The position numbers were made by a program, and so were the translations under genes. From Hyphobacterium sp. CCMP332 (GTDB lineage Bacteria > Bacteroidota > Bacteroidia > Cytophagales > CCMP332), in NCBI GenBank assembly GCA_014323545.1, contig CP058647.1, forward strand, positions 124,001 through 188,000: 64,000 nucleotides of DNA, written 5' to 3'. Each line of letters opens with the position of its first letter. Within the stretch, counting starts at the first letter, position 1. Shown one piece after another: positions 28,847-58,033 of this stretch. Below the pieces are notes generated by a model that saw only the letters and a list, made by a program, of their open reading frames with translations, was not told the DNA's origin and ran no database searches.

Positions 28847-28926
28847 CTGCACGATTGAGACCCCGAATAATTTCCGGGAATAGCTGTATTATTGGAATCA
28901 CGGTTAAAATCCGGGAATAGAAACTG
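28820..28926. repeat. Right array of palindromic repeat units
   Basis: Three degenerate units of the same family as the left array: a near-complete one from about 28820 (ATCCCGGATAATATCCGGGA), a second around 28861-28885 (CCCCGAATAATTTCCGGGA) and a third ending ATCCGGGAATAG at 28920 followed by AAACTG. Orientation is the same as the left array, and both arrays close with the same ATCCGGGAATAG plus nAACTG end. The first unit encodes the C-terminus of the GIY-YIG protein. Confidence 0.8.
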
Positions 28927-38378: not shown

Positions 38379-39026
38379 ATGAAACTATTGATATCCACTC
38401 TCTTAGTAATTTTTATTTCTTTCGCTGCTCAGTCACAGGCCCTGCAAAAGGGGAATATCGATGTTCATGCCGGTGTAGGGTTTGGCGTTTATAATTTTAC
38501 CATAAAAAGCTTTGAAACCGAAAATGCTGATGCAGTACCGGGCCTGACAAATTTAGGAGCCTCTTATCGTATCAGCGATGCTTTTTCATTGGGCCTGGAT
38601 TATGAAAGAAACGGTTTTGTCACCGATGCCGATTCAAACGAACAAGTGGTATCACAAAATTTTGGAATTACCGCAGGCTATAGTTTGGTCAATTCTGATA
38701 AAAATGTGTTGACGCCATTTTTTACAATCGGAGCCACAAGGCTAAAATTTGAAAATTTTGACAATCAGGATTATGTGACGGCAAATGGGCTACAACTTCA
38801 ATTTGGCCTGGCCTGGAATCATTATTTTGGAGAGCGGTTCGGCATGTTCATCAATGCATCTGTCCCCTATTACTCTTATAGCAAATTTAAAAGCTCCAAT
38901 GGCGATGTATACGAGGAAAGCCGGGTCGTCAATGATAGTCAGGGCAATCCTGTGGTGGAGACGCGTGTGGTGGATGGTTATATGACCGGTGTAAATATAA
39001 GACTGGGACTGGCTTTGAAATTGTGA
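38379..39026 (+). CDS. Outer-membrane beta-barrel protein
   Basis: Protein of 215 residues with a signal peptide (MKLLISTLLVIFISFAAQSQA) and an eight-strand-like barrel pattern (GNIDVHAGVGFGVYNFTI, LTNLGASYRISDAFSLGLDYER, NFGITAGYSLVN, TPFFTIGATRLKF, LQLQFGLAWNHYFGERFGMFINASVPYYSY, GVNIRLGLALKL), the OmpA/OmpW-like porin group. Two TGCGTCA copies lie in the upstream region (near 38297 and 38319) and might be regulatory. It is followed by a GC-rich hairpin module and a dispersed repeat. Confidence 0.78.
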   Translation: MKLLISTLLVIFISFAAQSQALQKGNIDVHAGVGFGVYNFTIKSFETENADAVPGLTNLGASYRISDAFSLGLDYERNGFVTDADSNEQVVSQNFGITAGYSLVNSDKNVLTPFFTIGATRLKFENFDNQDYVTANGLQLQFGLAWNHYFGERFGMFINASVPYYSYSKFKSSNGDVYEESRVVNDSQGNPVVETRVVDGYMTGVNIRLGLALKL

Positions 39027-39046
39027 GAAACAAAATAATATAACTG

Positions 39047-39143
39047 CCCCCACACTTGTCCTCGCCTTCATGCCATGCTTTGGCTCAACCTTCGGCAGCT
39101 AAACCCGCCTGCGGCGGGTAAACCGGACAGGCAGGGAGTAAAC
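39047..39143. repeat. GC-rich hairpin module, copy 1
   Basis: A region of about 95 bp beginning CCCCACAC and GTCCTCGCC, containing the perfect hairpin ACCCGCC-TGC-GGCGGGT (39103-39119) and a following GACAGGCAGGG. A similar module is found at 54921-55025, also directly before a copy of the 195-bp repeat. The base composition differs strongly from the AT-rich surroundings. Confidence 0.6.
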
Positions 39144-39168
39144 TTAAGGTCTGCAAAACAATTGAATT

Positions 39169-39363
39169 CGTCATTCCAAGACGATCGAACCCGAAAGTCT
39201 CGTAGAGTGATTCGGGGAGGAAGTTCTTGGAATCTCTTTCCTGAAAATATTAAATAGTGTGAATTATTTGACTAAAACAGCTATGGTCAAACTGATATGG
39301 CATGGATAATATTTACCTTCTTTGTCAATCAGCGTCTCTGTTAGATGACGCTGATGGCGGAAA
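39169..39363. repeat. Dispersed 195-bp repeat, copy A
   Basis: First of five plus-oriented copies. The left part is a long interrupted hairpin: ATTCCAAGA at 39173 pairs with TCTTGGAAT ending at 39233, enclosing CCCGAA/TTCGGG and CTC/GAG around a GTA loop. The right end carries a second hairpin, CAGCGTC / GACGCTG. In this copy the open frame present in the other copies is closed by a TAA. The rest of 39027-39418 holds the GC-rich module and no gene that I can see. Confidence 0.8.
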
Positions 39364-39418
39364 GTTCGCCCTCCTCAGCCTCGACTGACGAGGAACTGTA
39401 TAAAGTTTGATGTTAATT

Positions 39419-41800
39419 TTAATCTTTAATAAATTTAAATGAATAAGTTTGATTAGTACTTTCTAAAATTCCAATAAACAAACCTGTCTGCAATGATGAG
39501 GTATTGAGACTAAGTGAATTTAGATTAGTATTCATAATTTCTTTTCCAGATAAATCAATAATTCGTAACCGTATTGGTGTTTCGTTTTTAGGGAGCGTGA
39601 AATTTAATGTATTTATTACAGGGTTTGGGTAAATGACTAGTGAATTTTCAATTTTCGATTCATCGGAGATAGAGCTAACGCTACCATTAACAATAAGTAT
39701 TTTGCTTAATTCAAAGGGATTTTCTGGAAATGTATAAATGACTGAAATATTAGGAATGAATGGATCGAAAGAATATAAGGCTGGTCTTGCTGCTGAATTC
39801 ATATCATCCGCAAAACTCCAAATTTTCCCATCAAAATAAGCTTCTTGATAAGTTAACGATGTTCTTAAACCATAATTAAACATTTCAGAACTTTCTAAAT
39901 ATGAATTGCCTGTTTTGTCTATTGAATATCTAATACCATTTGAATTAGTACCACCACTCCCATTTAAACCAAAAATTGAATTATTAATTACCGTTATAAA
40001 AGGTGAAATATTATTGCCGGCATAGTTATGATTAGTCTGCAGATTGTTAGTCCCTAAGTCAAACTCAATTAATGATGATGAGGAAAATGAACTTGCAATA
40101 CCAAATATGGAATTATTAATTAATTTCATTTGGTAAACTGTTTGATTGTTAGGTAAATTAAAACTGTGTAATATAGATGTATTCCAGTTAGTGGTATCAA
40201 TCTCAATTATAGCACCATGATTATTTAAAGCACCATACCATGAGTTAAAGTATATTTTTTGACCATGAAAATTCGGAGCAGACAAAAAAATTCCGGTATT
40301 AGAATCTAAGTGTTTTATGATTTGAATACTTTCATCGTTCATAGAGTAACGGAATATATAGCCCTTGTTAAAACTTCCGCCTATAGTTGTAGAGCCGTAA
40401 ATATAATCTCCATTCGCACCTATATTATCATTGAGATTACTAGGAATATTATTTGACTCTGGGCAGTATAAAATTTCAATATTTGAAAAACCTGTATCAG
40501 TCTTGCATAAGCAGCCATTATTTCCTTTACCATTTTCGGTAGTTGCAAAAATCAATTCCGAACCAATCTGAAGCAAACCTTGAAAATTTCTTTGACCATA
40601 ATAATTATGAAATTTATGAGCGGTATCAATTTGGATATTGTTATCAATCTTCATAAAGTCTGAACAATTCCCAATTTTAATTTCTGAATAATATAATTCA
40701 TCATTAATTAAGGACAATCCACTTTCGGAATTTTCTATACTGTCAAGAATCTGAAAACTATTACCCAATGTATCGAGGGAATATACGAATCCATCAAAGC
40801 TCCAATCAGGTGAAGTGGAACCGTAGATAAATCCGTTTCTATATGCAATATCATATTCCGGTCGATTATGCCCTGAACTATCAAAATGATGAATTACATT
40901 CAGTGAATTATTACTTAGACTGAATTTAAATACACTTCCATAACCGAATTGCCCACCATCTTTGCAAGTTCCGAATAAATTTGAACCAATTTTTAACATG
41001 TTTGATGATGGATTTAGACCGTTCAATGATGTGAAGGAGTGAACCACATTTGAGCTATCAAGCAACAAGTCATAATAGGAAATTGTACCGGGGTTATTCA
41101 AATCTCCTTTTGTAGCAAACCAAAGTTTATCTCCATCCAATAATAAATTACCATAAGGAATTCTTCCGGGAATTGAAGGCCCAAAATTCAATACCGTGGT
41201 AAAATTATTCGTGTTAATTTCAAACTCATTGATTTGGCCTAATCCATTTTGACCTCCATCAATTGAAAGCAAATATATCTTTCCATTATAGACTGTCATA
41301 TCGCCATCTCTCATGTTTCGCGTATTGGTAAAATGATGATGAATAGTCAATTGTTTAGTAAAAGTATCAACGGAAAATAAAGTGCCTGAACCATTTTGTC
41401 CTCCTGAGGTTGTAGCTCCCCAAATTTCCCCACCGATCTGTAACAATCTTGGACCCCGGAAAAAAGCAGTGCCAATCTGATCTTTAAATGATATTACTTT
41501 TTTAGAAAATTGATCTCCAGGTTTGTACGAAAATAAGACTCCTTCATTCGAATCACCACCTCTCGCCATACCCCAATATTTTCCATTTAACCAAATAGGG
41601 TTTTCGTATAAATTAAAAGACTGATTTGTATTAAATAGTTTTTGAAAATTACTTCCATCCGTATCAAGTGAATAAAAATAATTTTCACTAAATACACTAC
41701 TATAATAGCCTATTATAGTTTTCGTTTGAGCAACTGAATTGATGTAATAAAGGGTGAACGTGATTAAAAGTATTAGAGATTTAATAATTGTAGTTTTCAT
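39419..41800 (-). CDS. T9SS-sorted secreted protein with GloVer-type tandem repeats
   Basis: Protein of 793 residues with a signal peptide (to about residue 25) and at least ten degenerate repeats of the form G-x-x-x-x-G-G-x-x-G-x-G-x-x-F/Y-x-x, e.g. IWGATTSGGQNGSGTLFSVD, LFGTCKDGGQFGYGSVFKFS, IYGSTTIGGSFNKGYIFRYS. This corresponds to the repeat called GloVer (TIGR03803 as I recall), likely blades of a beta-propeller. The C-terminal about 75 residues are a type A T9SS sorting domain (VIYPNPVINTLNFTLP ... LSLNTSSLQTGLFIGIL). It is expected on the cell surface or released. Function unknown. Confidence 0.82.
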   Translation of the reverse strand: MKTTIIKSLILLITFTLYYINSVAQTKTIIGYYSSVFSENYFYSLDTDGSNFQKLFNTNQSFNLYENPIWLNGKYWGMARGGDSNEGVLFSYKPGDQFSKKVISFKDQIGTAFFRGPRLLQIGGEIWGATTSGGQNGSGTLFSVDTFTKQLTIHHHFTNTRNMRDGDMTVYNGKIYLLSIDGGQNGLGQINEFEINTNNFTTVLNFGPSIPGRIPYGNLLLDGDKLWFATKGDLNNPGTISYYDLLLDSSNVVHSFTSLNGLNPSSNMLKIGSNLFGTCKDGGQFGYGSVFKFSLSNNSLNVIHHFDSSGHNRPEYDIAYRNGFIYGSTSPDWSFDGFVYSLDTLGNSFQILDSIENSESGLSLINDELYYSEIKIGNCSDFMKIDNNIQIDTAHKFHNYYGQRNFQGLLQIGSELIFATTENGKGNNGCLCKTDTGFSNIEILYCPESNNIPSNLNDNIGANGDYIYGSTTIGGSFNKGYIFRYSMNDESIQIIKHLDSNTGIFLSAPNFHGQKIYFNSWYGALNNHGAIIEIDTTNWNTSILHSFNLPNNQTVYQMKLINNSIFGIASSFSSSSLIEFDLGTNNLQTNHNYAGNNISPFITVINNSIFGLNGSGGTNSNGIRYSIDKTGNSYLESSEMFNYGLRTSLTYQEAYFDGKIWSFADDMNSAARPALYSFDPFIPNISVIYTFPENPFELSKILIVNGSVSSISDESKIENSLVIYPNPVINTLNFTLPKNETPIRLRIIDLSGKEIMNTNLNSLSLNTSSLQTGLFIGILESTNQTYSFKFIKD

Positions 41801-42506
41801 AAAAATGGGAGGCCAATAAAACTGCGAATTTATAAATTAATAATTGATTTAATTGATATTTTCTTTATGCGAACCTTGAGCTTCATGGCATCCATTCAAT
41901 GCAGAAGCATGAGATAGTATGGCATGGATCAATTTAAACGAGGAGATTGAATTAAAGAAAAAATACTAATTAGGCAGACCCATTCACACAAACCTCAAGT
42001 CAACCTGATGTATGGACCAGATTTGAAAAACTCTTCGAGTTTTTCAGTGAGCTCCAGAAATCTCATCCTAAATAAGAAAATGCTACCTATAATCCGTCAT
42101 TCCAAGACGATCGAACCCGAAAGTCTCGTAGAGTACTTCGGGGAGGGAGTTCTTGGAATCTCTTTACTGAAACTACTAATTAATATCGATAAATTGACTA
42201 AAACAGCTATGGCAAAACCGATATGGCATGGAAGATATTTAGCTTCTTTGTCAATCAGCGTCTCTGTTAGATGAACTAAATCAACCAATTTTTTAATGAT
42301 TAACAAATACCCATGCTTGGGTATTGCGATTTAGGATCAAAAAAAAGCACTTTAGTATTCAGACTAGGAATATCCCTAATAAATCGTTCATATTTCCTTT
42401 TAGACCGGGTTATTTGGGAGATCCGGTATTGTAATTTTTTATTTAAAGTCTGCATGTAAAAAATTATATTTATGTATGTTTTGAGATATAGAATAAATAC
42501 CTTCAA
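41801..42506. other. 706-nt intergenic region with hairpins and repeat copy B
   Basis: Divergent region between a T9SS gene and the alpha-2-macroglobulin gene. It contains a perfect 9-bp hairpin GAAAAACTC-TTC-GAGTTTTTC at 42025-42045, the repeat copy at 42095-42274, and a perfect 8-bp hairpin AATACCCA / TGGGTATT at 42306-42325. Short open frames on the minus strand here come from the repeat and are not convincing genes. The last about 170 nt presumably hold the promoter of the downstream gene. Confidence 0.6.
42095..42274. repeat. Dispersed 195-bp repeat, copy B (right end missing)
   Basis: Same element as copy A, with the long ATTCCAAGA ... TCTTGGAAT hairpin. It stops after GTTAGATGA, lacking the CGCTGATGGCGG end, so the second hairpin is incomplete. 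The 17 nt at 42077-42093 (AAAATGCTACCTATAAT) also precede copy C, so these two share a longer left end. The minus-strand frame ending LSGSIVLE is open here. Confidence 0.8.
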
Positions 42507-45500
42507 ATGAAACCTCCGATCTACAATTCCCTCCGACAATTTATACTATTAATTCTTTGCTTTCTGGCCTTAATTTCCTGCAGGAAAAGTGAATCTGACA
42601 AGCACCTGATTGTAGATGCAGGTTTTGGTGATTATGTGAGTGCTTTTAGCTCCGGAATAGTTAGCAGTCGATCAAATGTAAAAATTGTATTGGCACAACC
42701 AGTCAGCAACATCCGGGAGGGTCAAATACTCAAAGAGGGAATTATTACATTAAAACCCTCTGTAGACGGACAAGCGGTGTGGTTAGATAATCAAAGCATT
42801 GAATTCAGACCCACAAACAAATTGCGTTCGGGAGAAACGTATAAAGTAGAATTTAAGCTCTCAGAAATCATGGAGGTAGAAGAAAAATTCGAAACCATGA
42901 CTTTTGCTTTTACAGTAATCCGACAAAATCTGTATGTATCAATCGATAAACTAAAAACAGCGGATATTAATGACCTTACTAAGCAGGAAATGTATGGAAC
43001 TTTACGCACGAATGATATCGCCCTAAATGCTGAAATTGAAAAGTGCTTATCTGCAAGCCAGGGAAACAGCAAGCTCATCATCAATTGGATACATCAAAAA
43101 GATTCCAAGATTCATAAATTTATTATAATAAACATTGAAAGAGGCAATTCAGAGAGCTTTGTAAAATTAAAATGGAATGGGGAGGCATTGGGAATAGATA
43201 CAAAATCTCAAAAGGAACAACGCATTCCGCCGCTTGGGGAATTTACTCTTATGCAAATCAGCACCCAAAGAGAGCCGGGATTGCATTTTAGCATCACCTT
43301 GTCCGATCCTATCAAGCAAAATCAGGATCTGACCGGATTGGTTTATCTCAAGTCTGGTAAAAATCTCCGATTAAAAATTGAAGAAAACGAAATCAAAGCC
43401 TTTCCGCTGAATGACTTGAGCAATACAGAAACCATTGTAATTGACAAAAGCATTGAAAACAGTCTGGGGCATCAATTGCAAGAGACTTATGAAAGGATTG
43501 TAGAATTTAAATTGGTAGAACCCGCTGTAGAACTGATTGGTGATGGCGTCATAATGCCCAGCTCAGGAAATATTACCTTTCCATTTAAAGCGGTCAATTT
43601 AAAAGCCATAAATCTCAGAATAATACAGATTTATGAAGATAATGTGCCTCAGTTTATGCAGGAAAACCAAATTGACGGTAGCAATCAATTGGCACGTGTA
43701 GGAAATTTAGTTTATGACGGTACGATCGATCTTATATCCGAAGAGCCCATTGACTACAGTATTTGGAACAATTTTTCAATTGACCTTTCCAACCTAATCC
43801 AACCACAAGCCGGGACGATTTACCGCATAATGATATCCTATGAACGTTATCAATCGCTGTATCCCTGCAGTTCCGAGGAGGAGATTAAGCCTATGAAGAA
43901 AAACAAATTGAATTTTGTAGATGGCCGCTCCTATTTTAGTCCAAATGATTGGTACGAAGGTTACATTGATTGGGATGAAAAAGACAATCCTTGCTCTGAA
44001 TCCTATTACAGATATTACAGCCGGGCCATTAGTGCAAATATCATCGCAAGCAATCTGGGAATACTTGCCAAAGAGAGCAGTGAGAATCACTTCAATGTAG
44101 TTGTCACCGACCTGAGAAATAGCGATGCAATATCCGGTACTCAAATTATTGCATTGGACTACCAAAATCAGGAAGTAGGCGAAGCAAAGACCAATAGTGA
44201 TGGATTAGCTCAGTTTAAAACCACAAGAAAGCCTTATTTATTGCTTGCAAAAAAAGGTGATCAAAAAGGATATTTAAGAGTGGATAATGGATCCGCACTT
44301 TCGGTAAGTCTTTTTGAAGTAGGTGGAGATGACATTAAAAAAGGAATCAAAGGATTTATTTACGGTGAACGTGACGTCTGGAGACCGGGTGATACCCTTC
44401 ATTTGACTTTTATGCTCGAAGATAAATTAAACGCTCTTCCGGAAACACATCCGATTGTATTGGAAATGTATGATCCAAAAGGAAAACTATATGAAAAACA
44501 GGTTAAAAACAAAGGGGTTAAAGGCCTTTACTATTTCAAAATTAAAACTGCACAAAGTGACATTACCGGTAATTGGCAAGTCAGGATAATGGTTGGAAAC
44601 AGCACCTTTTATAAATACTGCAAACTTGAAACCATCAAGCCCAACCGATTGAAAATCGATTTTAATTTTGATAAGATCCTGCATTCCAATAAAACTATTA
44701 AAACACGTTTAAATGCAAAATGGCTATATGGTTTACCGGGCGCCAACCTGAAAGCTGAGGTTGAATACAACCTGGCCAATTTGAAAACAACTTTTGAGGG
44801 TTATGAAAATTATCAATTCGACGATCGCTCAAAACGGTTTTACGATGCTGATGTAGACGAAGTCAGTGGCACCACTAATACTTTAGGAGATCTTGATTTT
44901 ACATTCCCGGTTCAAAAGCCCTATAATGCGCCTGGCATGCTGCAACTTAAATTTAGGACCAAGGTATTTGAACCCGGTGGTGATTTTTCACAGGACTTTT
45001 TAAGCATTCCTTATTCACCTTACAGGTCCTACGTAGGTTTAAAAGTGGATGCCGGACAAAACTGGATGAACGCATTAAATACCGAAGAAGAACAAGCCAT
45101 TTCTCTTGCTTCGGTGGACGAACACGGAAATCCGGTTAATTCAAGGGTAAAACTAAAAGTCTACAAATTGGGTTGGCGCTGGTGGTGGGAAGGCAATGGA
45201 AGCGATGAACTGACGCAATATATCAATGCCTATGATAAAGAACTGATAAAAGAAGACCTGATTGAAATATCCAATGGGAAATCAGCCTACGGATTAAAAT
45301 TTGATAAACCAGACTGGGGAAGGATGCTAATTGTCATAGAAGATATTGTTTCGGGGCATTCCGCTTCACAATTGGTATACGCAGACTTTCCCGGTTGGTG
45401 GAGTAGCGATGGCAGTGGTTCTGAGGCGGCATCCATGCTGGCCATTGAAGCGGGTAAAACCAAATACGATGTCGGTGAAAAAATAGATGTTTCAGTGCCT

Positions 45501-48041
45501 TCAGGAGGCGTTGGAAATATTTATGTAACATTGGAAAAGGGCGATAAAATACTTAAACAATTCTGGGTTAAAGCAGAAAAAGAAAGTACTCAGTTTAGTT
45601 TTGAGGCCAGTAAAGAAATGGCCCCTAATGTTTATGTATCAGCGACATTAATTCAACCCCATGCTCAAAAGGAAAACAGTTTGCCAATTCGAGTTTATGG
45701 TGTTATTCCGGTATATGTTAATGATCCAAATACTCATGTTAGTCCGGAAATCAAGGCACCAAAGGAAATCCGTCCGGAAAGTACTTTCAGCCTGGAAGTA
45801 AGTGAAAAAGATGGAAAAGCAATGGCCTATACAGTGGCTGTGGTGGATGAGGGTTTGCTGTCACTTACAAGATTTAAAACGCCGAATCCCTGGAAAACTT
45901 TTTACAGCAAGGAGGCTTTAAAAGTAAGGACATGGGATTTGTATCAATATGTAATGAGTGCAAAGACCGGTAAATTAATTCCACTTTTAGCCGTCGGGGG
46001 CGATGAAGCCTTAAAAATTGAAAATGAACAAGAAGAAGCACAGCGATTCAAGGCCGTAGTTAAATATTTAGGCCCTTTCTATCTGAAAGAAGGAAAAAGC
46101 ATGCGACATGAAATTAATATTCCCAACTATATCGGCGCACTTCGCGTCATGGTTGTCGCGGGATATGATGGCGCTTATGGTGCGGAAGAAAAAGAAGTTT
46201 TGGTAAAACAACCTCTAATGGTCATGTCTACTTTACCCAGGGTACTTGGGCCTTCTGAAAAAATACGCGTGCCAGTTAATGTAATATCCATGATTGACAA
46301 TACCCAAAATATAAAAGTGAAGGTTACATCCAATGATATGTTAAAGGTAATCGGACCGGATACCCGGGAATTAAAAATCGAAAAAGCGGGGGAAGAAACC
46401 GTTTATTTTGAATATAAAGTAGCCCGGCGTCTTGGTAAAGCTACATTCCGGGTGGATGTGAGTTCCGGGAAAAACAAGGCCTTTGAAGAACTGGAACTAA
46501 ATGTCAGAGCTCCAAACCCTCATATATCATCGGTAAAGTCTAATGCAGTAGAATCCGGAAGCAATTGGGAACTGAATTATGAAGCCATTGGAATAAATGG
46601 TTCAAATTCCGCCACTTTCAGCGTTTCTAAAATACCGGACATCGCATTAAAAAAACAACTGGATTATCTCATTAAATATCCTCACGGATGTATTGAGCAA
46701 ACCACTTCTTCGGCTTTTCCTCAACTGTTTTTGTCACAACTGGTAGAGCTAAGTGCTATTCAAAAAGAGGAAATTCAAAGAAATGTTTTAGCAGCCATTA
46801 ATCGTTTTCGAAAATTTCAAACTCAGGAAGGGGGAATGTCCTATTGGCCGGGGAATTCAAATTATATTTCAGAATGGGGGACCAATTACGCCGGTCATTT
46901 CTTATTAGAAGCCAAAGAAAAAGGATATGATATGCCTCCGGGAATTCTCAGCCAATGGATCAAATTTCAGAAAACAGCCGCTTCAAACTGGACCAGGGCA
47001 CGCTATGATCAATACGGAAGATACGGCGGCGATCTTACTCAAGCGTATCGTCTTTTCACACTTGCATTGGCCGGACAGCCTGATATTGGTGCAATGAATC
47101 GATTAAAAAATGACACCAGGCTTTCTAATACAGGCGCATGGAGATTAAGCGCAGCCTATGCAATTCTAGGAAGAGAAGAAGCTGCGAAACAATTGGCCGA
47201 GCGTGAAATTATAATTAGTCCTTACCGGGAAACGGGTTACACTTATGGATCAAATCTTAGGGATCAGGCGATGATAATTGAGACAATGGCCTATTTAAAA
47301 GAAAACGCCCGCGGTGCAGAGCTCATTCGCGATTTGGCCAAAGAACTCAAAAAAGGTTGGCATAGTACGCAAACTCGCGCCTATGCTTTGTTGGCAATTT
47401 CAAAGTTTATCTCCGGCGATGATTTTCCCGGAGAGATTTCTGTAAGTCTCAAAATAAATGGCAAGAATTATTCGGTTAATACGAATGTGCCCATTTACCA
47501 ATTGGAACTTTCCGAAAAAGATTTGAATTCCGGAAGCATTGAGTTTCAAAACAACTCATCCCAATTGTTATTTGTTAATTTCATTCAGTCGGGCATTCCA
47601 CTGGAAATAGACCAAAAGGCCATTAGGGATGATCTCAATATGGAGATCAATTATTATACAATGGATAACAGGCCATTGGATGTGCGGAAAATCAAACAGG
47701 GCCAGGATTTTAAAGCAGAAATAAAAATTAAGCATCCGGGCATTAGGTCTTCTTATCAGGAGGTGGCTTTAAATCAGATTTTTCCAAGTGGTTGGCAGAT
47801 CATCAATACACGTCTGAATGAGGAAAGCGCTTCTAATAAGAATTATAATTATCAGGACATTCGGGATGATAGAATCTATACCTATTTTGATCTGGATAAA
47901 AATAAAACAGTTTATTTTGAAGTATTGCTAAATGCCAGTTTTTGTGGTGAATTTTATCAACCCGGAGTTTTTTGTGCTCCAATGTACGATGAAAGCATTC
48001 AGGCATTGGATCCCGGCCAATGGGTAGAGGTAATCCCTTAA
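42507..48041 (+). CDS. Alpha-2-macroglobulin family lipoprotein
   Basis: Very large exported protein of 1844 residues with a lipoprotein signal peptide (lipobox LISC). It has the bacterial alpha-2-macroglobulin layout: N-terminal Ig-like MG domains, a long middle with GERDVWRPGDTLHLTFML (MG2 region), the ANTH-like AYTVAVVDEGLLSLTRFKTPNPW segment, and the thioester domain with C1395 and Q1398 in HGCIEQTTSSAFPQL, so the thioester is intact. Such proteins are thought to trap foreign proteases that damage the envelope. It lies 6 nt before a PBP1C gene; this pair is known to be conserved, linking protease trapping with wall repair. Confidence 0.93.
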   Translation: MKPPIYNSLRQFILLILCFLALISCRKSESDKHLIVDAGFGDYVSAFSSGIVSSRSNVKIVLAQPVSNIREGQILKEGIITLKPSVDGQAVWLDNQSIEFRPTNKLRSGETYKVEFKLSEIMEVEEKFETMTFAFTVIRQNLYVSIDKLKTADINDLTKQEMYGTLRTNDIALNAEIEKCLSASQGNSKLIINWIHQKDSKIHKFIIINIERGNSESFVKLKWNGEALGIDTKSQKEQRIPPLGEFTLMQISTQREPGLHFSITLSDPIKQNQDLTGLVYLKSGKNLRLKIEENEIKAFPLNDLSNTETIVIDKSIENSLGHQLQETYERIVEFKLVEPAVELIGDGVIMPSSGNITFPFKAVNLKAINLRIIQIYEDNVPQFMQENQIDGSNQLARVGNLVYDGTIDLISEEPIDYSIWNNFSIDLSNLIQPQAGTIYRIMISYERYQSLYPCSSEEEIKPMKKNKLNFVDGRSYFSPNDWYEGYIDWDEKDNPCSESYYRYYSRAISANIIASNLGILAKESSENHFNVVVTDLRNSDAISGTQIIALDYQNQEVGEAKTNSDGLAQFKTTRKPYLLLAKKGDQKGYLRVDNGSALSVSLFEVGGDDIKKGIKGFIYGERDVWRPGDTLHLTFMLEDKLNALPETHPIVLEMYDPKGKLYEKQVKNKGVKGLYYFKIKTAQSDITGNWQVRIMVGNSTFYKYCKLETIKPNRLKIDFNFDKILHSNKTIKTRLNAKWLYGLPGANLKAEVEYNLANLKTTFEGYENYQFDDRSKRFYDADVDEVSGTTNTLGDLDFTFPVQKPYNAPGMLQLKFRTKVFEPGGDFSQDFLSIPYSPYRSYVGLKVDAGQNWMNALNTEEEQAISLASVDEHGNPVNSRVKLKVYKLGWRWWWEGNGSDELTQYINAYDKELIKEDLIEISNGKSAYGLKFDKPDWGRMLIVIEDIVSGHSASQLVYADFPGWWSSDGSGSEAASMLAIEAGKTKYDVGEKIDVSVPSGGVGNIYVTLEKGDKILKQFWVKAEKESTQFSFEASKEMAPNVYVSATLIQPHAQKENSLPIRVYGVIPVYVNDPNTHVSPEIKAPKEIRPESTFSLEVSEKDGKAMAYTVAVVDEGLLSLTRFKTPNPWKTFYSKEALKVRTWDLYQYVMSAKTGKLIPLLAVGGDEALKIENEQEEAQRFKAVVKYLGPFYLKEGKSMRHEINIPNYIGALRVMVVAGYDGAYGAEEKEVLVKQPLMVMSTLPRVLGPSEKIRVPVNVISMIDNTQNIKVKVTSNDMLKVIGPDTRELKIEKAGEETVYFEYKVARRLGKATFRVDVSSGKNKAFEELELNVRAPNPHISSVKSNAVESGSNWELNYEAIGINGSNSATFSVSKIPDIALKKQLDYLIKYPHGCIEQTTSSAFPQLFLSQLVELSAIQKEEIQRNVLAAINRFRKFQTQEGGMSYWPGNSNYISEWGTNYAGHFLLEAKEKGYDMPPGILSQWIKFQKTAASNWTRARYDQYGRYGGDLTQAYRLFTLALAGQPDIGAMNRLKNDTRLSNTGAWRLSAAYAILGREEAAKQLAEREIIISPYRETGYTYGSNLRDQAMIIETMAYLKENARGAELIRDLAKELKKGWHSTQTRAYALLAISKFISGDDFPGEISVSLKINGKNYSVNTNVPIYQLELSEKDLNSGSIEFQNNSSQLLFVNFIQSGIPLEIDQKAIRDDLNMEINYYTMDNRPLDVRKIKQGQDFKAEIKIKHPGIRSSYQEVALNQIFPSGWQIINTRLNEESASNKNYNYQDIRDDRIYTYFDLDKNKTVYFEVLLNASFCGEFYQPGVFCAPMYDESIQALDPGQWVEVIP

Positions 48042-48047
48042 TTTTAT

Positions 48048-50351: not shown

Positions 50352-50856
50352 TTCAAACTTGTTCTTATCGTTTAAGATTGTTTTGATTGCTTATTGGACC
50401 TATAAGCGGAGCTGATACTTATCAGCCGCAGCTGAGAAGCATCAGTTTTGGCCAAAATGCTACCTATAATTAATCATTCCAAGACGAACGAACCCGAAAG
50501 TCTCGTAGAGTACTTCGGGGAGGAAGTTCTTGGAATCTCTTTCCTGAAACTATTAAACAGTTTCAACAAGTTGACTAAAACAGCTATGGCAAAACTGATA
50601 TGGCAGGGATGATATTTAACTTCTTTGTCAATGAGCGTCTCTGTTAGATGACTCTGATGGCGGAAATATTATTGTGCAATGATCTAAGACTAAGAAGCCC
50701 GCTTAGACTAAGATTTGGTGTGTTTGTTCAATAATATTTTTATATTTAAAATTCTCATAGAGAAATATACTATTTGTCCCCTTTCATAATGAAGCGGATA
50801 ACAATTCAGTGATCATCCAAATCATACGAATTTGTTAAACCTAAACTGCTAAAGTT
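50352..50856. other. 505-nt intergenic region with repeat copy C
   Basis: After PBP1C comes a short perfect hairpin GCTGATA-CT-TATCAGC (50410-50425), then the 17-nt shared block AAAATGCTACCTATAAT (50454-50470), the repeat copy, and about 190 nt of AT-rich DNA leading to the T9SS gene at 50857. No gene or RNA recognised. Confidence 0.6.
50474..50666. repeat. Dispersed 195-bp repeat, copy C
   Basis: Full-length copy with the long hairpin (ATTCCAAGA ... TCTTGGAAT) and the right CGGAAA end. The second hairpin is weakened here (GAGCGTC versus GACTCTG). The minus-strand frame is open through to FVLE. It is preceded by the same 17-nt block as copy B. Confidence 0.8.
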
Positions 50857-53051
50857 ATGAAAAGCGCGTATCTTATATTTTTTTAATACTCACTCCTGTT
50901 TTTATTTCCGATGCTCATTCTCAAGACCCTGAAGAGGGTAGCGAACAGACTTGCTCAGGTAGTATTAAACTCTGGGATGAAAATGGCAATGAAGTTTTTG
51001 CTAATTCTGTTTGTTTAAATACTTGGGTACGAGTCGAATGGTCAAGAAACCTTTCTTGCTGCGGCTGTGACAATAATAATTCAAACTACGGAAGTGCAGG
51101 ACAATCAGTAAGCGGTACAAACATGTGGAGCGTTAGAGGTATTAATGAAATTTATGTAGGACCCACCTCTTCCGATCCAATCTCAAATCCTAATCACAGC
51201 TTAATTTATCAAATTTCAAATCCTCTAGTATATAGTGATTATTGGGGCAGTGGAGATCTGACACAAATTTGGGTAAAAATTAGACCTACTCAATCTGTGA
51301 ATATTGAAGTGCGCGGTAATTCTTGTGGTTTTTTAAATCAGTGTGATTTATTCTCATCACTAGATTTTTCATCTGGAGTTGAAGACAATGCTTCTTTGAA
51401 TATAACAGGTCCCAGCACAGTAATACCTTGCAGTAGCGGTGACTTAACATATACTTTAAATGGCAATTTCCAGCAAACCAACTCTAGTCAGTTCTACTTT
51501 TGGTGGACTTTGGGAAGTGGTTGGGAAATAAAATCAGGCCAGGGAACACAACAAGTTGTAATAAATAATAAAAACAAATCTGGTACACCGACGCTGCAAG
51601 TGCATGCATTCAAAAATTTTAATACTTGCAATCAAAGTTCCATTTATAGATCAGTTTCATTTACAAGAGATTTATCAAATTTGCCTGAGCCATCTGATAT
51701 TGTTGAGAGTTCATGGATTAATTTTCAGGGAATGCCATTTACTAATTTAAATCAACCACCTTATGACTGGTGTAAAAACCAAGGTTATCACATAATAGGT
51801 AGGGCTACAAATATTCCAAGTCATTCCGAGACTAGAGTTATTCATTCAGTAAGTTCACCTAATGGTAATGCAAAACTGGTTGATGATGGTTGGTACGATT
51901 ATAATATGAGAAGTTGGGACAGCAACCTTAGCGGATATGAGTTTGTTAATTCATTATCAGAATTGTTAAACACTGGGAACATTAATTCTGCTTATGCTAA
52001 TAACGACAAAGTTTCTGTTGCACCAATGGGTGAAACCGAGGTTGATGTTACAATTCAACTGGATTTTAATTGTCGGCTTTCATATACAACATACACAGAA
52101 AAATTTTACACTAAATCCAATCCTGCTATTCCTTACATAATTAAAGACAGTCAAGAACCGAATTGTTCCTCGAATGATATAACTTATAGAATTCAAAATC
52201 AAACTAGTGATATCATTAGTTATTCGTGGACATCTTCGACGCCTTCATCTACCCCAATAAATCATTTTGAGCCATTTTCTTCTTCGATTAATAATGAGAT
52301 AATATTCTTAGATGACTACTTGCCTAATACTAGTGGGAAACAGCCATCTGTACCTAATAGTGTTAATACTGTGAATATCAGTGCCACCGCAGAAAATGAT
52401 TGTTTCCTGACATCCTCAACTACAATATCCGTAGGGTTTAATAACTCAGCACAAACACCATCTATTTCTGCACCAGACTGTTATTATTTGGGGGGTGAAG
52501 AATTCCCCTATCTTAATGAAGTAAGAATCGACAATCCTCAACTCAATCTTGGTATAACTTATGGCTGGATCATTTCATATAAAAATCAAAGTGGAAATTC
52601 TGTAACCCTTAACCCTATTTTAGAAGATTTTGGAACTGTTTGTAAGTTTGATTTTGATGGAGATTACCCTTCTGAAGTTACTTTCATCTGCATAGCTAAT
52701 GACTGTCAAAATAATCCTACGGCTACCCTTACTCTAAATGATCTTTACGTAATTGAGAACCCTTCTATTGTTTGCACCAATGAATCTACAGAATCAAAAA
52801 AAGGATTCTTCAGCAATCACAATGAAATCACAATTTTTCCAAGTCCAGCTGATAATTTCTTTACAATAAGCACTGATCTTCCAGGTAAAAAAGAAATAAG
52901 AATTTACAATGTTACTGGCGAATTAGTAGAAGAAATGGAATTGGAATCAAATTTAATAAACGTGAGCTCTGAAAATTGGAAAGCTGGAAGTTACATAGTT
53001 CATATTAGTAATAATGATAATTCTTATGCTAAAAAATTGTTAATTAAATAA
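50857..53051 (+). CDS. T9SS-sorted, PKD-like secreted protein, frameshifted in the signal peptide (T7 run)
   Basis: ATG 50857 starts a signal peptide (MKSAYLIFF) that hits TAA inside a run of seven T (50878-50884). The adjacent frame, open from the run to 53051, continues it perfectly (LILTPVFISDAHSQDPEEGS) and has no start of its own until ATG 51123. With one more T the product would be about 731 residues. The mature protein has a Cys-rich start, Ig/PKD-like beta domains (GPSTVIPCSSGDLTYTLNGN; FYFWWTLGSGWEIKSGQGTQ) and a type A T9SS sorting domain (ITIFPSPADNFFTIS ... WKAGSYIVHIS). Without correction the long frame lacks an export signal. It precedes a T9SS gene by about 25 nt. Confidence 0.75.
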
Positions 53052-53076
53052 TTGAATTAGAGTTTATAAACTTCTG

Positions 53077-54900
53077 ATGAGAACAACAATATTATTTTTT
53101 ATAACTGCATTTGTCTCCTTCTTTGAATTAAATGCTCAAAACGAATCATTGACTTTTTTCAAGCTATCAGATTTCAAATCCAATATACTATTAGGTGAAA
53201 TGGATGACTATGGCAACGGTTATTATCTTGTAAATCACGTTGGAACTCTTAATTTTTTAAATGATTCAGTTGAAAATTCTAACTCTCCTTTTGCTGCAAC
53301 TACATTATGTAAAATTCGCCCAGATGGATTTCTTTACTGGCATAAACAAATAACTGGTATTGCAGGACCGAATGGTGTGAAAATTTTAGATGATGGTATT
53401 ATTATATTCGGATTGTTTCGAGATACGGTTACATGGGATGGACTTCAAATTATTGAATCATTTGAGATTAACTATCCCATAGATGATCAGTTCTTAGCCA
53501 AATTCAGTTTTGATGGTGATATTCAATTCTTAAATCCATTTTACGGTTCTATTAAAAGCATTGATCATGTTGTTAAGATCAATAATGAAGCAATAATAGT
53601 TGCAGAATTTGATAGTCTTGCTATTCTTGGTAATGATACCCTTTTCGAAAATATTAATTCTCAAATGGGTAACCATTCAGATGAATTCATAACTAAAATC
53701 GATTCCGATGGAAATTACCAATGGGCGATTGCATTAGGTTCATCAAGTTTTGAGGTTATAAATGATATGACTTATGATCCTGTGAATAATAGTATTTTAA
53801 TGTGGGGTTATTTTCAAGGCGTACCAGAAATAGCACCTTCAATTCCAGCAGGTAATCTTGTGTTTTTAGAATTTGATACTTCCGGAAATTTAACTAATTC
53901 CAGGACCTTTGATATTCCATTAACTCCCCCCTTTATTTCCTTTGGTTATAATTCTAAAGGTGAACTTCTTATCAGAGAATATAATGATAGCTCCGAAAAT
54001 TTATTTCCAGCGACTACAATTTATAACGGCCTAGAATATTTAGGTTTCTATAATTATTCTTTTGGGGGTTTTGCACCTCCAACTTCTGGTATTGCCTACG
54101 GTGCAAATTCAATAGCAAGCAGTAGCGACAAACTTATTTACGACGGCGATCTTTTTAGTGGTTTTTATAATCATCCACAAGGAATGATAATTGATAATAA
54201 TCAACCAATTTCAATGCCATATAGCATTACCTGCTTTGATAGTGATAGTATGAAGTTTATTTGGAACTTAGGAACTAATACACAATTGAAAGAAACTGAT
54301 CTGAATCAGGGAGTGCAACTCTTATATAATCAACTAATTGATTCCGTTACAATTCTTGATACTGCCAACATTGTTAAAACACCCTCACAAGATGAATTTT
54401 TGCTGGTATATATCAATGATTGTGATTATTTCAAGCCACAAGTCTCTGCTCAGCTTATAAATGATTCTATTTTTTTAGATACTGATGTTCTTGAAGTGAA
54501 ATGGTATCGCAATAACTCCATCATTCCAAACTTAAATGACAATAGAATTCGGCTTACTGGCAGTGGAAACTATTATGCTGTAGTCAACAATTATTTTGGA
54601 TGCGAATATGCGACAAATACATTGAATGTTGTAAGTGAGATTTTAAATAAAGAAACAGACATTTTTCTTAATGTTTATCCCAATCCATCCAAAGGAGTAA
54701 TCCATTTTGACCTTTCTAGTTTAAATCCAAAAGAAGAATTACAACTTCAAATCATCAATATTAATGGTAGAACGGTATTCAAGACTACCATAACAGATAA
54801 ATTCTCTACACTTGACATTTCTAGTTTACCCTCTGGTATCTATATCTATAATTTGAAGTCTGAAAACTATAGATTTAGAGGTAAAATTTTAAAAGAGTAG
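53077..54900 (+). CDS. T9SS-sorted secreted protein, paralogue 1
   Basis: Protein of 607 residues with a signal peptide (to about FFELNAQ) and strand-rich repeats resembling a propeller or SBBP-type fold (DDYGNGYYLVNHVGTL, TKIDSDGNYQWAIALGSSSFE, LEFDTSGNLTNSRTF). A short Ig-like region follows (VLEVKWYRNNSII ... YYAVVNNYFGCEYA) and then a type A T9SS sorting domain (NVYPNPSKGVIHFDLSSL ... LPSGIYIYNLKSENYRF). It is about 40% similar by eye to the gene at 55342, and the last 80 nt of the two are identical. Function unknown; surface or released. Confidence 0.82.
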   Translation: MRTTILFFITAFVSFFELNAQNESLTFFKLSDFKSNILLGEMDDYGNGYYLVNHVGTLNFLNDSVENSNSPFAATTLCKIRPDGFLYWHKQITGIAGPNGVKILDDGIIIFGLFRDTVTWDGLQIIESFEINYPIDDQFLAKFSFDGDIQFLNPFYGSIKSIDHVVKINNEAIIVAEFDSLAILGNDTLFENINSQMGNHSDEFITKIDSDGNYQWAIALGSSSFEVINDMTYDPVNNSILMWGYFQGVPEIAPSIPAGNLVFLEFDTSGNLTNSRTFDIPLTPPFISFGYNSKGELLIREYNDSSENLFPATTIYNGLEYLGFYNYSFGGFAPPTSGIAYGANSIASSSDKLIYDGDLFSGFYNHPQGMIIDNNQPISMPYSITCFDSDSMKFIWNLGTNTQLKETDLNQGVQLLYNQLIDSVTILDTANIVKTPSQDEFLLVYINDCDYFKPQVSAQLINDSIFLDTDVLEVKWYRNNSIIPNLNDNRIRLTGSGNYYAVVNNYFGCEYATNTLNVVSEILNKETDIFLNVYPNPSKGVIHFDLSSLNPKEELQLQIININGRTVFKTTITDKFSTLDISSLPSGIYIYNLKSENYRFRGKILKE

Positions 54901-54920
54901 AAAGTTACTTGCCCATTCTA

Positions 54921-55025
54921 CCCCACACCCGTCCTCGCCTGCCTACCATGCCTATGGTTATTTGCTTAACCTTCGCCAGCTAAACCCGCCTGCGGCGGGT
55001 AAACCCAACAGGCAGGGGTGTAAAC
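54921..55025. repeat. GC-rich hairpin module, copy 2
   Basis: Second copy of the module at 39047-39143: CCCCACAC, GTCCTCGCC, CTTCGCCAGCTAAACC, the same ACCCGCC-TGC-GGCGGGT hairpin and a closing ACAGGCAGGG. It is again placed directly before a copy of the 195-bp repeat. A weaker relative (CTGCCTGCCGATAGGC) precedes copy E near 57250. Confidence 0.6.
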
Positions 55026-55049
55026 TGACGGTGTAAATCTCACTTGATT

Positions 55050-55244
55050 CGTCATTCCAAGACGATCGAACCCGAAAGTCTCGTAGAGTACTTCGGGGAG
55101 AAAGTTCTTGGAATCTCTTTCCTGAAACTATTAAACAGTATCAATAAGTTGACTAAAATAGCTATGGCAAAACCGATATGGCATGGATGATATTTAGCTT
55201 TTTTGTCAATCAGCGTCTCTGTTAGATGACGCTGATGGCGGAAA
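55050..55244. repeat. Dispersed 195-bp repeat, copy D
   Basis: Full-length copy with both hairpins (ATTCCAAGA ... TCTTGGAAT and CAGCGTC ... GACGCTG). The minus-strand frame is open (ending LSGSIVLE). It fills much of the 441-nt gap between two paralogous T9SS genes, the remainder being the GC-rich module and about 95 nt of leader. Confidence 0.8.
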
Positions 55245-55341
55245 AAATTTACCAAATGGTCAATACATTTTGAATGTAAAGACAGAAAGTAACATCATCA
55301 ATAAAAAAATCGTTAAACAGTAATAATTTTATGTAAGGTAT

Positions 55342-57183
55342 ATGACATCTGGAAAATATCTCGCACTTATAATCTTATTATTTATTACGGGAAACTTATG
55401 TGGTCAGAAAAGGAAAGCACATTCACACTTGTTATCAAACTTTAACACCTTTCAAGCCAATTCTGGTGGAATAGATGAATATGGAAATGCCTATATTTTA
55501 TTTTTTCACGATTTTGATTTACCCTTTAACAATGATACCATACAGGCATTAAACCCAATTGGAACTTCTACTTCAATTGCTAAAATAAGTCCAAACGGAA
55601 ATCTTATTTGGCATAGTCAGGCTTCTAGTTTCACTATTGATGCTGAAATTGTCATGGATGATAATTATCTGTATTGCTATGGTCGTTTCTGGGATACGAT
55701 TTCTTTTAGTGGTAATACAATAATTGAATCAAATCCTTCTGATTCTTTATTTGATGACGATGTATTTATTGTCAAATATGACCTCAATGGTAATTTAAAG
55801 TATTTAAATGGTTTCCCGGATAAGGTATCTAGAATTTCGAATGTTACATTGATGTACAAATCTATTTATTACACTGGTCAGTTTGAAAATCAAATAGTTT
55901 TGGGATCAGATACTTTAATTGAAGATAGTGTATCAAATCACGGTGGGACTGATGATATGTTTCTAGGCAAACTGGATGCTAACGGAAACTATGATTTTAG
56001 TACTTATTTAGGCAGTCCATCACAGCAAGTAATGATAGATTTGATTGTAAAAGATACAAGTATCATTTCTTATGGGTATTACTTCGCTACTCCTACTTTC
56101 GCACCAACTATTATTGCACCTTCATTTATATTTATGCAATTCGATACATTAGGAAATCTGATTAATTACCGTCCTTTAAATCTAACGGTAGCTCTACCTT
56201 TTATGGCGCTTGGTTTCAATGAAGATTTTGAGTTGATCACAAGAGATTTTAGTGATTCAGCAGAAAATCAAATTCTAGCAAACACGATTTATGGGGGACA
56301 AAATCATGTAGGATTTTATAAATATTCATTCGGAGCTTTCAGTCCTCCTACTTATGGAATAGCTTATGGTGGATCTACAGTAGAATTGACCAATCCAGCA
56401 GATGACAAATTTTCTTTTTCGGGTAATTTGATAAGTAACTTTATAAAACATACATCAGGCATCACCTATGACGGTGTAAACCAGATAAATAGTCCATATA
56501 GCATTATGGCTTTTAATTCTGATCAAATGGAAGTTCAATGGTCCGAAGCAGTAAGTGGAGAATTAAAAGAAATCGACATACATCAAGGTTTTCAATTGTT
56601 AACAGGCACTTTAATGGATTCTGTATTGACTATTGATACTTTACAAATAGTCTCAACGCCATTTGTTTCAGAGTATCTAATTTATTACACAGGGGATTGT
56701 AATTTCTTCAAACCACAACGAGTCATATCTCGGACAGGAGATTCGTTACATATTGTAAAGGGAGAACTTGAAATAGAGTGGTATAAAAATAATGGCACAC
56801 CAGTAGCCAATTCGTTAAATGAGGAAAGTATTAGGTTAGTTGGAGCAGGATCATATTATGCAGAGTTAAGAAATTACTTTGGGTGTAAATATTACTCTGA
56901 TACAGTTAGCATTGTTAGTGGTATTGAAAACGGAGAATTATTTAGTGAAATAAATGTATTTCCAAACCCTACAAAAGGAGAAATTAGCATTGACATTTCT
57001 AGTTTAAAACGGCAGGAAGAGTTACAGCTTCTGATCACCAACATTAATGGTCGGGCAATATTGAAGACCACTATTTCAAGAAATTCTAACAATCTTGATA
57101 TATCAGGTTTACCCTCTGGTATCTATATCTATAATTTGAAGTCTGAAAACTATAGATTTAGAGGTAAAATTTTAAAAGAGTAG
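55342..57183 (+). CDS. T9SS-sorted secreted protein, paralogue 2
   Basis: Protein of 613 residues with a signal peptide (MTSGKYLALIILLFITGNLCG) and the same layout as the gene at 53077: repeats of the form D-x-x-G-N-x-x-Y (GIDEYGNAYILFFHDF, GKLDANGNYDFSTYLGSPSQ, MQFDTLGNLINYRPL), an Ig-like segment (LEIEWYKNNGTPV ... YYAELRNYFGCKY) and a type A T9SS sorting domain (NVFPNPTKGEISIDISSL ... LPSGIYIYNLKSENYRF). The two genes arose by duplication, with a repeat copy lying between them. Function unknown. Confidence 0.82.
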   Translation: MTSGKYLALIILLFITGNLCGQKRKAHSHLLSNFNTFQANSGGIDEYGNAYILFFHDFDLPFNNDTIQALNPIGTSTSIAKISPNGNLIWHSQASSFTIDAEIVMDDNYLYCYGRFWDTISFSGNTIIESNPSDSLFDDDVFIVKYDLNGNLKYLNGFPDKVSRISNVTLMYKSIYYTGQFENQIVLGSDTLIEDSVSNHGGTDDMFLGKLDANGNYDFSTYLGSPSQQVMIDLIVKDTSIISYGYYFATPTFAPTIIAPSFIFMQFDTLGNLINYRPLNLTVALPFMALGFNEDFELITRDFSDSAENQILANTIYGGQNHVGFYKYSFGAFSPPTYGIAYGGSTVELTNPADDKFSFSGNLISNFIKHTSGITYDGVNQINSPYSIMAFNSDQMEVQWSEAVSGELKEIDIHQGFQLLTGTLMDSVLTIDTLQIVSTPFVSEYLIYYTGDCNFFKPQRVISRTGDSLHIVKGELEIEWYKNNGTPVANSLNEESIRLVGAGSYYAELRNYFGCKYYSDTVSIVSGIENGELFSEINVFPNPTKGEISIDISSLKRQEELQLLITNINGRAILKTTISRNSNNLDISGLPSGIYIYNLKSENYRFRGKILKE

Positions 57184-57301
57184 AAAATTACTTGCCCCTC
57201 CTCAGCCTCTGCTGATAAATATATGGGTTAGGCTCGCGGTTCGTTTACCTGCCTGCCGATAGGCTGGGAGTATAAAGTACGACTTTCAACAAAATAGAAT
57301 A

Positions 57302-57496
57302 CGTCATTCCAAGACGATCGAACCCGAAAGTCTCGTAGAGTGATTCGGGGAGGAAGTTCTTGGAATCTCTGTCCTGATATTATTAAGCGGCAAAAATAAG
57401 TTGACTAAAAAAGCTATGGCCAAACTGATATGGAATGGATAATATTTAGCTTCTTTGTCAAACAGCGTCTCTGTTAGATGACGCTGATGGCGGAAA
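57302..57496. repeat. Dispersed 195-bp repeat, copy E
   Basis: Full-length copy with the long hairpin and the right end GACGCTGATGGCGG; the left arm of the second hairpin reads CAGCGTC. The minus-strand frame is open. It is the last copy before the convergent RHS-associated genes; 57184-57564 holds only this copy, a GC-rich stretch and the start of the 519-bp repeat. Confidence 0.8.
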
Positions 57497-57514
57497 AACC
57501 TGATATTTAACAGA

Positions 57515-58033
57515 CGGGGCTGATGAGGATTAGAACTGAGGCATGAATTATGTGATTTCTGTCTTTAATCACATTCTCCAATTAATCTTGCACTTACATA
57601 ATAGCACTCTGAAGCATCCCCGCTAATAATCCTGACTTTCTCAGGATCACGACTAATCGATTTAAAATCTATACTATCATTTGTAGCCTTGTTATTATAA
57701 AAATCAGTTAGAAATACCTTTGATTGAATTTGAAAAACCGACCATTTTGACCCGGAAGGCAATGAATAGAAAGTAAAACTTTGCACACTATCATTATGAA
57801 ATTCATTTTCACTTATCACCGAATAATCGATGACCTCATAGCTCCATATTACTTTTCTTTCCGAATCGACATCAATATATATTCTGAAAGTATAGCTATT
57901 ACTATCTGAGTCAGAAAACATTGAATCCAGTACAATCATACAGTTCCTTTGGTTAAAATCTTTAGAGGAAAACCTGAAACTAAAAAAGCTTAAGATGATT
58001 AATATTGGGACTACAAGAGATTTGAATTTCATT
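57515..58033. repeat. 519-bp direct repeat, copy 1 (contains an immunity-like gene)
   Basis: This block is repeated at 62634-63152 in the same orientation and with no gaps; I count about 15 mismatches by eye. It covers the whole small exported gene and about 50 nt after its stop, and ends at its start codon, so the regions upstream of the gene differ between the copies. Confidence 0.9.
57565..58032 (-). CDS. Small exported protein, candidate immunity protein (duplicate copy)
   Basis: Protein of 155 residues with an N-terminal signal peptide/anchor (about 5-20) and a beta-rich mature part (YTFRIYIDVDSERKVIWSYEV, SKWSVFQIQSKVFL) with Cys at 31, 143 and 154. No known family recognised. It differs from the copy at 62684 at nine residues: 68, 75-77, 79, 83, 140, 143 and 145, in two clusters. 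The other copy follows an RHS-M23 effector directly; this one has lost its effector and instead follows other exported small genes. An immunity role is inferred from context only. Confidence 0.6.
   Translation of the reverse strand: MKFKSLVVPILIILSFFSFRFSSKDFNQRNCMIVLDSMFSDSDSNSYTFRIYIDVDSERKVIWSYEVIDYSVISENEFHNDSVQSFTFYSLPSGSKWSVFQIQSKVFLTDFYNNKATNDSIDFKSISRDPEKVRIISGDASECYYVSARLIGECD

Follow-up and report, generated by a model that had tools for sequence, protein, structure and literature searches.

A 195-bp composite repeat, probably derived from REP-type hairpins, among surface-protein genes of Hyphobacterium sp. CCMP332

Five copies among surface-protein genes

A 195-base repeat occurs in five copies within 18.3 kb of the Hyphobacterium sp. 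CCMP332 genome, in a single orientation and amid surface-protein genes. The stretch analysed (the window) comprises 64,000 nucleotides of contig CP058647.1, positions 124,001 to 188,000; coordinates refer to it unless prefixed otherwise. The flanking genes encode an outer-membrane beta-barrel protein, cargo of the type IX secretion system (T9SS), an alpha-2-macroglobulin and penicillin-binding protein 1C (pbpC). The copies, and the modules into which each can be divided, are as follows (ORF, open reading frame; REP, repetitive extragenic palindrome).

39169..39363, plus strand: copy 1, 142 bases past the plus-strand outer-membrane beta-barrel gene 38379-39026
42095..42274, plus strand: copy 2, truncated, between divergent genes and upstream of the alpha-2-macroglobulin gene 42507-48041
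50472..50666, plus strand: copy 3, 120 bases past pbpC (48048-50351)
55050..55244, plus strand: copy 4, 149 bases past the T9SS gene 53077-54900
57302..57496, plus strand: copy 5, 118 bases past the T9SS gene 55342-57183 and followed by a convergent minus-strand ORF, 57565-58032
39169..39236, plus strand: module F1 (copy 1 as example), a CGTC-tagged REP-type hairpin
39237..39320, plus strand: middle (copy 1 as example), 84 bp, a variable spacer and a conserved core with ACTAAAACAGCTATGG
39321..39363, minus strand: module F2 (copy 1 as example), the right hairpin, a member of the CATCAGNGT...ACNCTGATTGA palindrome family

Copy 1 precedes a convergent T9SS gene (39419-41800, minus strand). The first-pass annotation had described five copies with one order of hairpin arms and one orientation. 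All five were located, the start of copy 3 being corrected from 50474 to 50472. The order holds for the arms generally, but copy 2 is without the right hairpin and the right stem of copy 3 is mismatched. Four of the five do follow a plus-strand gene, at the distances listed rather than directly.

A MAFFT alignment of the copies spans CGTCATTCC to GGCGGAAA, and pairwise identity over its 178 gap-free columns is 86.5-94.4%. The 16-mer ACTAAAACAGCTATGG, allowing up to three mismatches, matches the window five times (mean 0.41, maximum 2, in 100 shuffles). Variable columns are distributed unevenly: 5/66 in F1, 17/32 in the spacer, 10/52 in the core, 2/28 in the left part of F2 and 10/14 in its right part, the last due mostly to copies 2 and 3. 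Copy 2 departs from the others after TTAGATGA, and its right hairpin is without the right arm (fold z-score at this place 0.16); copy 3 reads AATC in place of CGTC. The right end of the element is present in four of the five copies.

No further complete copy was found in the 3,325,829-base genome (33 of 33 candidates scored); a sixth match, at C1:3260014, is 65 bp long and consists of the left hairpin only. The 84-bp middle has no genome match outside the five copies at E <= 5 (150 of 1046 candidates scored). Absence elsewhere, which the first-pass annotation had named as a sign of mere local duplication, holds genome-wide for the complete unit, whereas both of its hairpins occur independently at other places in the genome.

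Copies 2 and 3 (42095 and 50472) form direct repeats around the alpha-2-macroglobulin-pbpC gene pair. Recombination between them (42095-50666) would delete that pair.

The two hairpin families

The outer stem of F1 is 9 bp long (ATTCCAAGA/TCTTGGAAT); it encloses a 43-nt loop, in which CCCGAA/TTCGGG and CTC/GAG hairpins are nested, and is followed by a CTC tail. A covariance model built from the left hairpin (6 sequences) gave 36 matches in the genome at E <= 1, including the six training sequences; 150 of 413 candidates were scored. The family has the form CGTC-ATTCCAAGA...TCTTGGAAT-CTC and counts at least 37 hairpins genome-wide, on both strands and often clustered; clusters with both orientations lie, for example, at C1:320209-322026 and C1:1115326-1115648. 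Matches outside the training set are 37-84 nt long and keep the outer stem, while their loops differ. In the window, other matches to the model at E <= 1 score at most 17.8 bits, and most are the reverse reading of the same hairpins.

We aligned 37 matches (alignment A5) after dropping C1:2815153, which looked poor, and adding two matches from local searches. The CGTC tag is present in 31 of the 37 (copy 3 is among the six exceptions) and the CTC tail in 28, with CCA in none; by strand, 20 are plus and 17 minus. Loops are 5 nt long in four of the 37, mostly 14-18 nt, and 43 nt in the element. Of 25 loci examined among the 31 matches outside the five copies, 21 overlap no ORF of at least 100 aa; three of the other four share one 114-aa ORF that runs across a repeat cluster. 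In the 1534-kb cluster, L047:413-891 is a tandem array with an F1 hairpin unit every 143 bp.

The first-pass annotation had regarded a lack of covariation in the stems as counting against its reading. Among the five copies 0 of 53 predicted pairs covary, but the wider F1 and F2 families do. Both-side changes affect 7 of 21 F1 pairs (shuffle mean 4.1; reached by 5/500 shuffles), and 37 cells are changed on both sides compared with a shuffle mean of 8.9 (0/500), in an alignment whose fitting to the model favours the structure. Of 36 distinct rows, 35 have A-T at stem pair 1; at pair 2, 25 have T-A and 10 have C-G. Among the compensatory changes, stem position 2 goes from T-A to C-G (10 sequences) and position 9 from A-T to G-C (four). 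When the stem partners are slid against each other, the share of paired cells falls from 95.4% to 58.6% or less.

A model covering the middle and the right hairpin recovered all five copies; it also gave three weak sites at 3.237-3.273 Mb, and at these it was mainly the right hairpin that aligned. Read on the minus strand, F2 has the form CATCAGCGTC...GACGCTGATTGA; others are CATCAGTGTT...AACACTGATTGA or CATCAGAGTC...GACTCTGATTGA. By its sequence, F2 is a member of a second, smaller palindrome family. In an alignment of 11 sequences with a hand-drawn structure (four window copies, seven sites at 3.237-3.274 Mb), both-side changes occur in 4 of 12 pairs, and 19 cells are affected compared with a shuffle mean of 7.7 (0/500). 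A model from these 11 sequences (R3) recovers them and three sites at E < 0.001 (C1:1425742, C1:2471733 and C1:3260086). At one distant site three hairpins stand in a row: F2 (C1:3259926), F1 (C1:3260006) and a weak F2 (C1:3260086).

Tandem repeats lie near some of these sequences. Beside the distant F1/F2 site, L012:3625-4157 holds a 162-bp tandem repeat (3.3 copies, 97% matches) that can be read as a repetitive 186-aa ORF. Short tandem arrays are also present in the window at 28233-28359 and 28823-28920 (periods 49 and 37), their units bearing CCCGGATA/TATCCGGG-like palindromes.

Relation to known repeats and distribution

The CGTC-tagged REP superfamily, as portrayed in the portions of the survey by Di Nocera et al. 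(2013, PMC3733652) drawn on here, includes the Neisseria dRS3 and Rickettsia RPE-4/RPE-6 repeats, apparently lacks a dedicated transposase, and is reported from phyla that include Bacteroidetes. Its members have a stem of 8-9 bp with A-T pairs at positions 1 and 2, a loop of 4-5 nt (other lengths are also reported) and a short unpaired tail, mostly CCA. F1 largely fits this description, judged on sequence: it has the terminal CGTC and a 9-bp stem starting with A-T, is mainly intergenic, and occurs in both orientations with clusters and no associated transposase (no F1 match within 6-7 kb around either Y1 transposase gene of the genome, see below). Its location after genes agrees as well. The fit is looser in the loop and in the short unpaired tail, which is mostly CTC. 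The A-T rule is followed partly at stem position 2, with C-G in 10 of 36 rows. We place the element in or next to this superfamily, with the difference that only about 37 units were found and five of them are embedded in a larger fixed unit.

Composite arrangements are known as well. In the same survey (PMC3733652), about 10% of Stenotrophomonas maltophilia dimers join different GTAG families, and most dimer spacers measure 20-100 bp. The element resembles such hybrid dimers in that palindromes from two families flank an 84-bp spacer in a constant order, but it combines a CGTC type with an untagged family. Neisseria intergenic mosaic elements (NIMEs) consist of dRS3 and RS repeats beside surface-protein genes and are linked to recombination, according to the part of PMC3898611 consulted; the element is likewise a CGTC-type palindrome combined with other repeats, intergenic and next to surface-protein genes. 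Unlike a NIME, however, it carries one F1 per copy, on the left side only, has no dRS3/RS-type array, and exists in five copies compared with hundreds of dRS3; nor is an integrase known to use its site. With REPINs (REP doublets forming hairpins) and bacterial interspersed mosaic elements it shares two palindromes around a spacer and a non-autonomous nature, a comparison drawn from PMC3733652 and abstracts. It is not a REPIN, as it has two different palindrome families, CGTC instead of GTAG, and no cognate REP-associated tyrosine transposase (RAYT) that we could find. Judged by eye, it is also not a miniature inverted-repeat transposable element with DNA-transposon ends, having neither terminal inverted repeats nor target duplications. 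The literature consulted on Bacteroidetes REPs, REPINs, NIMEs and T9SS-linked repeats yielded no description of the 195-bp element.

The position of copies after genes, all pointing the same way, also suggested an integron-like attC site; as each of the two hairpins is part of a dispersed family, this reading was dropped, no integrase having been searched for.

Outside this genome the complete element was found in 0 of 147 other relatives (at most five candidates scored per genome), and F1 likewise in 0 of 147; the 148 genomes searched include no other listed for this genus. Among 394 other genomes of the phylum there was one F1 match, which reads GTCATTCCGGC...GCCGGAATCTC. With the F2 model, five of the 147 other genomes of the order gave weak matches (best E values from 5e-7 to 7e-4); these were not counted, several being CATCAGAGTC or CTCAGAGTC palindromes and those in G001 and G116 looking poor by eye. 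No plasmid relative was found, and no IMG/VR contig carries the middle motif, sought with a single pattern to which only three of the five copies conform. A match in a contig of an Aliarcobacter metagenome-assembled genome (model R2, 24.1 bits, E 5e-4 for 8 kb) has a score close to that of one weak F2 site (24.5 bits) but was dismissed as coincidence: it lies inside a coding frame, which we take to be lpxK-like, and is without F1. Searches over 40 genomes used stricter filters, and first-look candidates were partly scored in the genome-wide and multi-genome searches.

Function, spread and the T9SS neighbourhood

Frames of at least 30 aa overlap every copy, the longest being 88 aa in copy 2. 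Within the 178 shared columns, every frame in every copy holds at least one stop; copies 1 and 5 have one extra stop in the longest plus frame, in which 19 of 20 variable codons alter the amino acid. A small protein was rejected on these grounds, the stops falling in the conserved part and the variable codons being mostly nonsynonymous. Since there is a stop in every frame and no conserved frame, we conclude from the sequence that the element is not a gene. An Rfam RNA was rejected too, as no window match exceeded the gathering threshold.

The first-pass annotation had also suggested a 3'-end RNA structure. The gene-following position of four of the five copies and the compensatory changes in both hairpin families speak for it; the lack of a terminator and the presence of F1 on both strands speak against. 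A role as transcribed hairpins in 3' untranslated regions (3'-UTRs) is possible. That the element is a functional 3'-UTR element kept by selection, as an mRNA stabiliser, decay block or terminator, goes further and seems to us rather unlikely. Two copies folded as a whole gave z-scores of -4.86 and -4.48 against shuffles, the right hairpin gave -5.3, -6.2 and -4.7 in the three intact copies, and both F1 and the left part of F2 are less variable than the spacer. However, the two folded copies disagree in overall structure, the right hairpin is weakened in copy 3 (z -2.2), and the right arm of F2 varies in most of its columns, chiefly through copies 2 and 3. One copy stands between divergent genes without a right hairpin. 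No intrinsic terminator was called at any copy (8 sites in 38900-57800, with 12.3 expected). The copies also lie 118-149 bases past their genes, farther than typical REPs in the consulted portions of PMC3733652, where these are found mostly after genes and often within 20 bp in the species plotted.

A non-autonomous mobile element, another suggestion of the first-pass annotation, is plausible on sequence grounds. It is in keeping with the lack of a coding frame, the absence of a common downstream flank and the REP-like left hairpin; the missing terminal repeats, target duplications and transposase and the confinement of all complete copies to 18 kb count against it. The genome contains two Y1 transposase matches (C1:2796258 and C1:3248578), one above the NCBIfam RAYT cut-off of 80 (87.2 bits) and one below (70.2 bits). 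The RAYT-like genes lie at L056:2573-3103 and L057:2818-3318, each between its own inverted repeats (GCGTTTGTAACGC; TCCCCAACTAGTCCTCGTATCA and GGTTGTACGAGGAC), which are unlike F1 and F2. By eye, window positions 39048-39078 and 54921-54951 resemble a CCTCGTCC-type sequence beside the first of these genes. A miniature transposon mobilised in trans by either enzyme would accord with the proposal that REP repeats are substrates of such transposases (PMC3733652, in part). We nevertheless consider it improbable: both genes are flanked by other palindromes, models R1, R2 and R3 have no match in the 6 and 7 kb around them, and the consulted portions of the same survey report no tyrosine transposase gene flanked by CGTC repeats.

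Two further features concern the T9SS genes themselves.

54826..54914, plus strand: near-identical 3' end of a T9SS gene, about 89 nt, with its counterpart at 57109-57197
55246..55323, plus strand: T9SS type A sorting-domain fragment, profile positions 48-72 of 72 (E 6.2e-5; 22.9 bits, just short of the cut-off, 23)

Between the T9SS paralogs 53077-54900 and 55342-57183, protein identity is 42%, and DNA identity before the last 36 codons is about 53%. Their last 24 codons are identical, and the match extends 14 nt past the stop; this tract has sharp boundaries and takes in the end of the sorting domain. This points to a recent exchange that ended before the element, likely a gene conversion, and local recombination as such is supported by the near-identical 3' ends. 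The elements behind the two paralogs are 89.9% identical. Given the much lower identity of the paralogs, the element looks far younger than the T9SS gene duplication. The idea, likewise raised by the first-pass annotation, that it served as a recombination substrate that duplicated the T9SS genes is therefore unsupported, the more so as the F1 clusters are not significantly near T9SS genes: 2 of 13 lie within 500 bp (rotation P 0.14), 2 of 13 within 1 kb (0.29), 5 of 13 within 3 kb (0.09) and 6 of 13 within 5 kb (0.10), in a test of clusters other than that of the window and C1:2815153.

T9SS sorting domains number 116 in the genome at E <= 0.001. Six fall in the 24.1 kb around the copies (mean 0.84), a density reached by 0.24% of windows. 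The complete element is accordingly confined to a T9SS-rich part, as first noted, but copies 2 and 3 bracket the alpha-2-macroglobulin and pbpC genes, neither of which has a sorting-domain match. The sorting-domain fragment abuts the right end of copy 4, and the upstream part of the domain is absent. We speculate, as a long shot, that the element lies at the border of a system that recombines T9SS sorting domains. In it, REP-type repeats next to surface-protein genes would keep silent C-terminal fragments, such as the one after copy 4, and would favour the exchange of gene 3' ends, from which the identical last 24 codons of the two paralogs would result. This idea is built on one fragment and one conversion tract; if true, the system would be a T9SS-bacterium counterpart of the Neisseria mosaic repeats and silent C-terminal cassettes.

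Because F1 belongs to a REP-like hairpin family and F2 to a second palindrome family, we consider it likely that the element is a REP-derived composite repeat, a reading that leaves transposition in trans and local recombination undecided. In this scheme the CGTC-tagged palindrome F1, with its enlarged nested loop, would have been joined by the 84-bp non-palindromic middle to an inverted member of the F2 family. The unit would be a non-autonomous passenger that spread over short distances in one of two ways: through a transposase supplied in trans that acts on hairpin DNA, or through recombination and gene conversion within a repeat-rich surface-protein region. Downstream of genes it would be tolerated and might be mildly useful; a transcript there would form 3'-UTR hairpins. 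It looks like a local repeat, not a dedicated system.

Several observations weigh against the composite-repeat reading or limit it. The loops of F1 are mostly longer than the 4-5 nt of the published CGTC repeats, to the extent that PMC3733652 describes them, and its tail is CTC instead of CCA. The number of covarying F2 pairs is ordinary (reached by 164/500 shuffles), further pair types exceed shuffles in neither F1 (312/500) nor F2 (499/500), and both tests count related sequences as separate cells. On its own F1 folds only modestly better than shuffles in the five copies (z -1.4 to -2.3) and no better at the distant site (z -0.46), and the best RNA fold of copy 1 does not use it. By eye there is no terminal inverted repeat (CGTCATTCC and GGCGGAAA are not complementary), and no target duplications were seen at the copy junctions; no cognate transposase was found for the element, the two RAYT-like genes having other palindromes. 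Copies 1 and 4 share 112 bp upstream at 79% identity (39048-39150 and 54921-55032) and copies 2 and 3 share 17 bp upstream, and some copies may thus have moved with flanking DNA. Finally, the complete copies are all found within a single 18-kb stretch and point the same way, a pattern that local recombination would explain as readily as transposition.

These last points favour a by-product of local segmental duplication and gene conversion: one ancestral repeat would have been duplicated together with its surroundings, and the flanking sequence would later have diverged or been replaced. This account, to which we would give somewhat less than an even chance, overlaps with the composite-repeat reading, whose mode of spread is left open. 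The clustering in one orientation, the similarity of copies 1 and 4 and of copies 2 and 3 beyond the element, and the paralog 3' ends, near-identical over about 89 nt where the rest is about 53%, are consistent with it and with local conversion. No two copies, however, share a downstream flank within 1.5 kb (E <= 0.01); the upstream flanks of copies 1 and 4 are 79% identical compared with 91% in the element, and the stretches from gene end to element of copies 4 and 5 are dissimilar despite the paralogous genes. Farther out, only the paralogous gene ends of copies 4 and 5 and one 16-bp match are shared. A four-gamete test, uninformative here, had six informative sites, and all five conflicts involve column 91.

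The element is an unannotated repeat of a T9SS-bearing bacterium, placed here in or next to a superfamily whose means of spread the 2013 survey left open, in the portions of PMC3733652 consulted. The conversion tract and the sorting-domain fragment hint that T9SS sorting signals may be exchanged between cargo genes; if the two are chance neighbours, this would be ordinary genome repeat biology. With five copies of a fixed composite and sharp right ends, the element would be a compact case in which to study the movement of such repeats.

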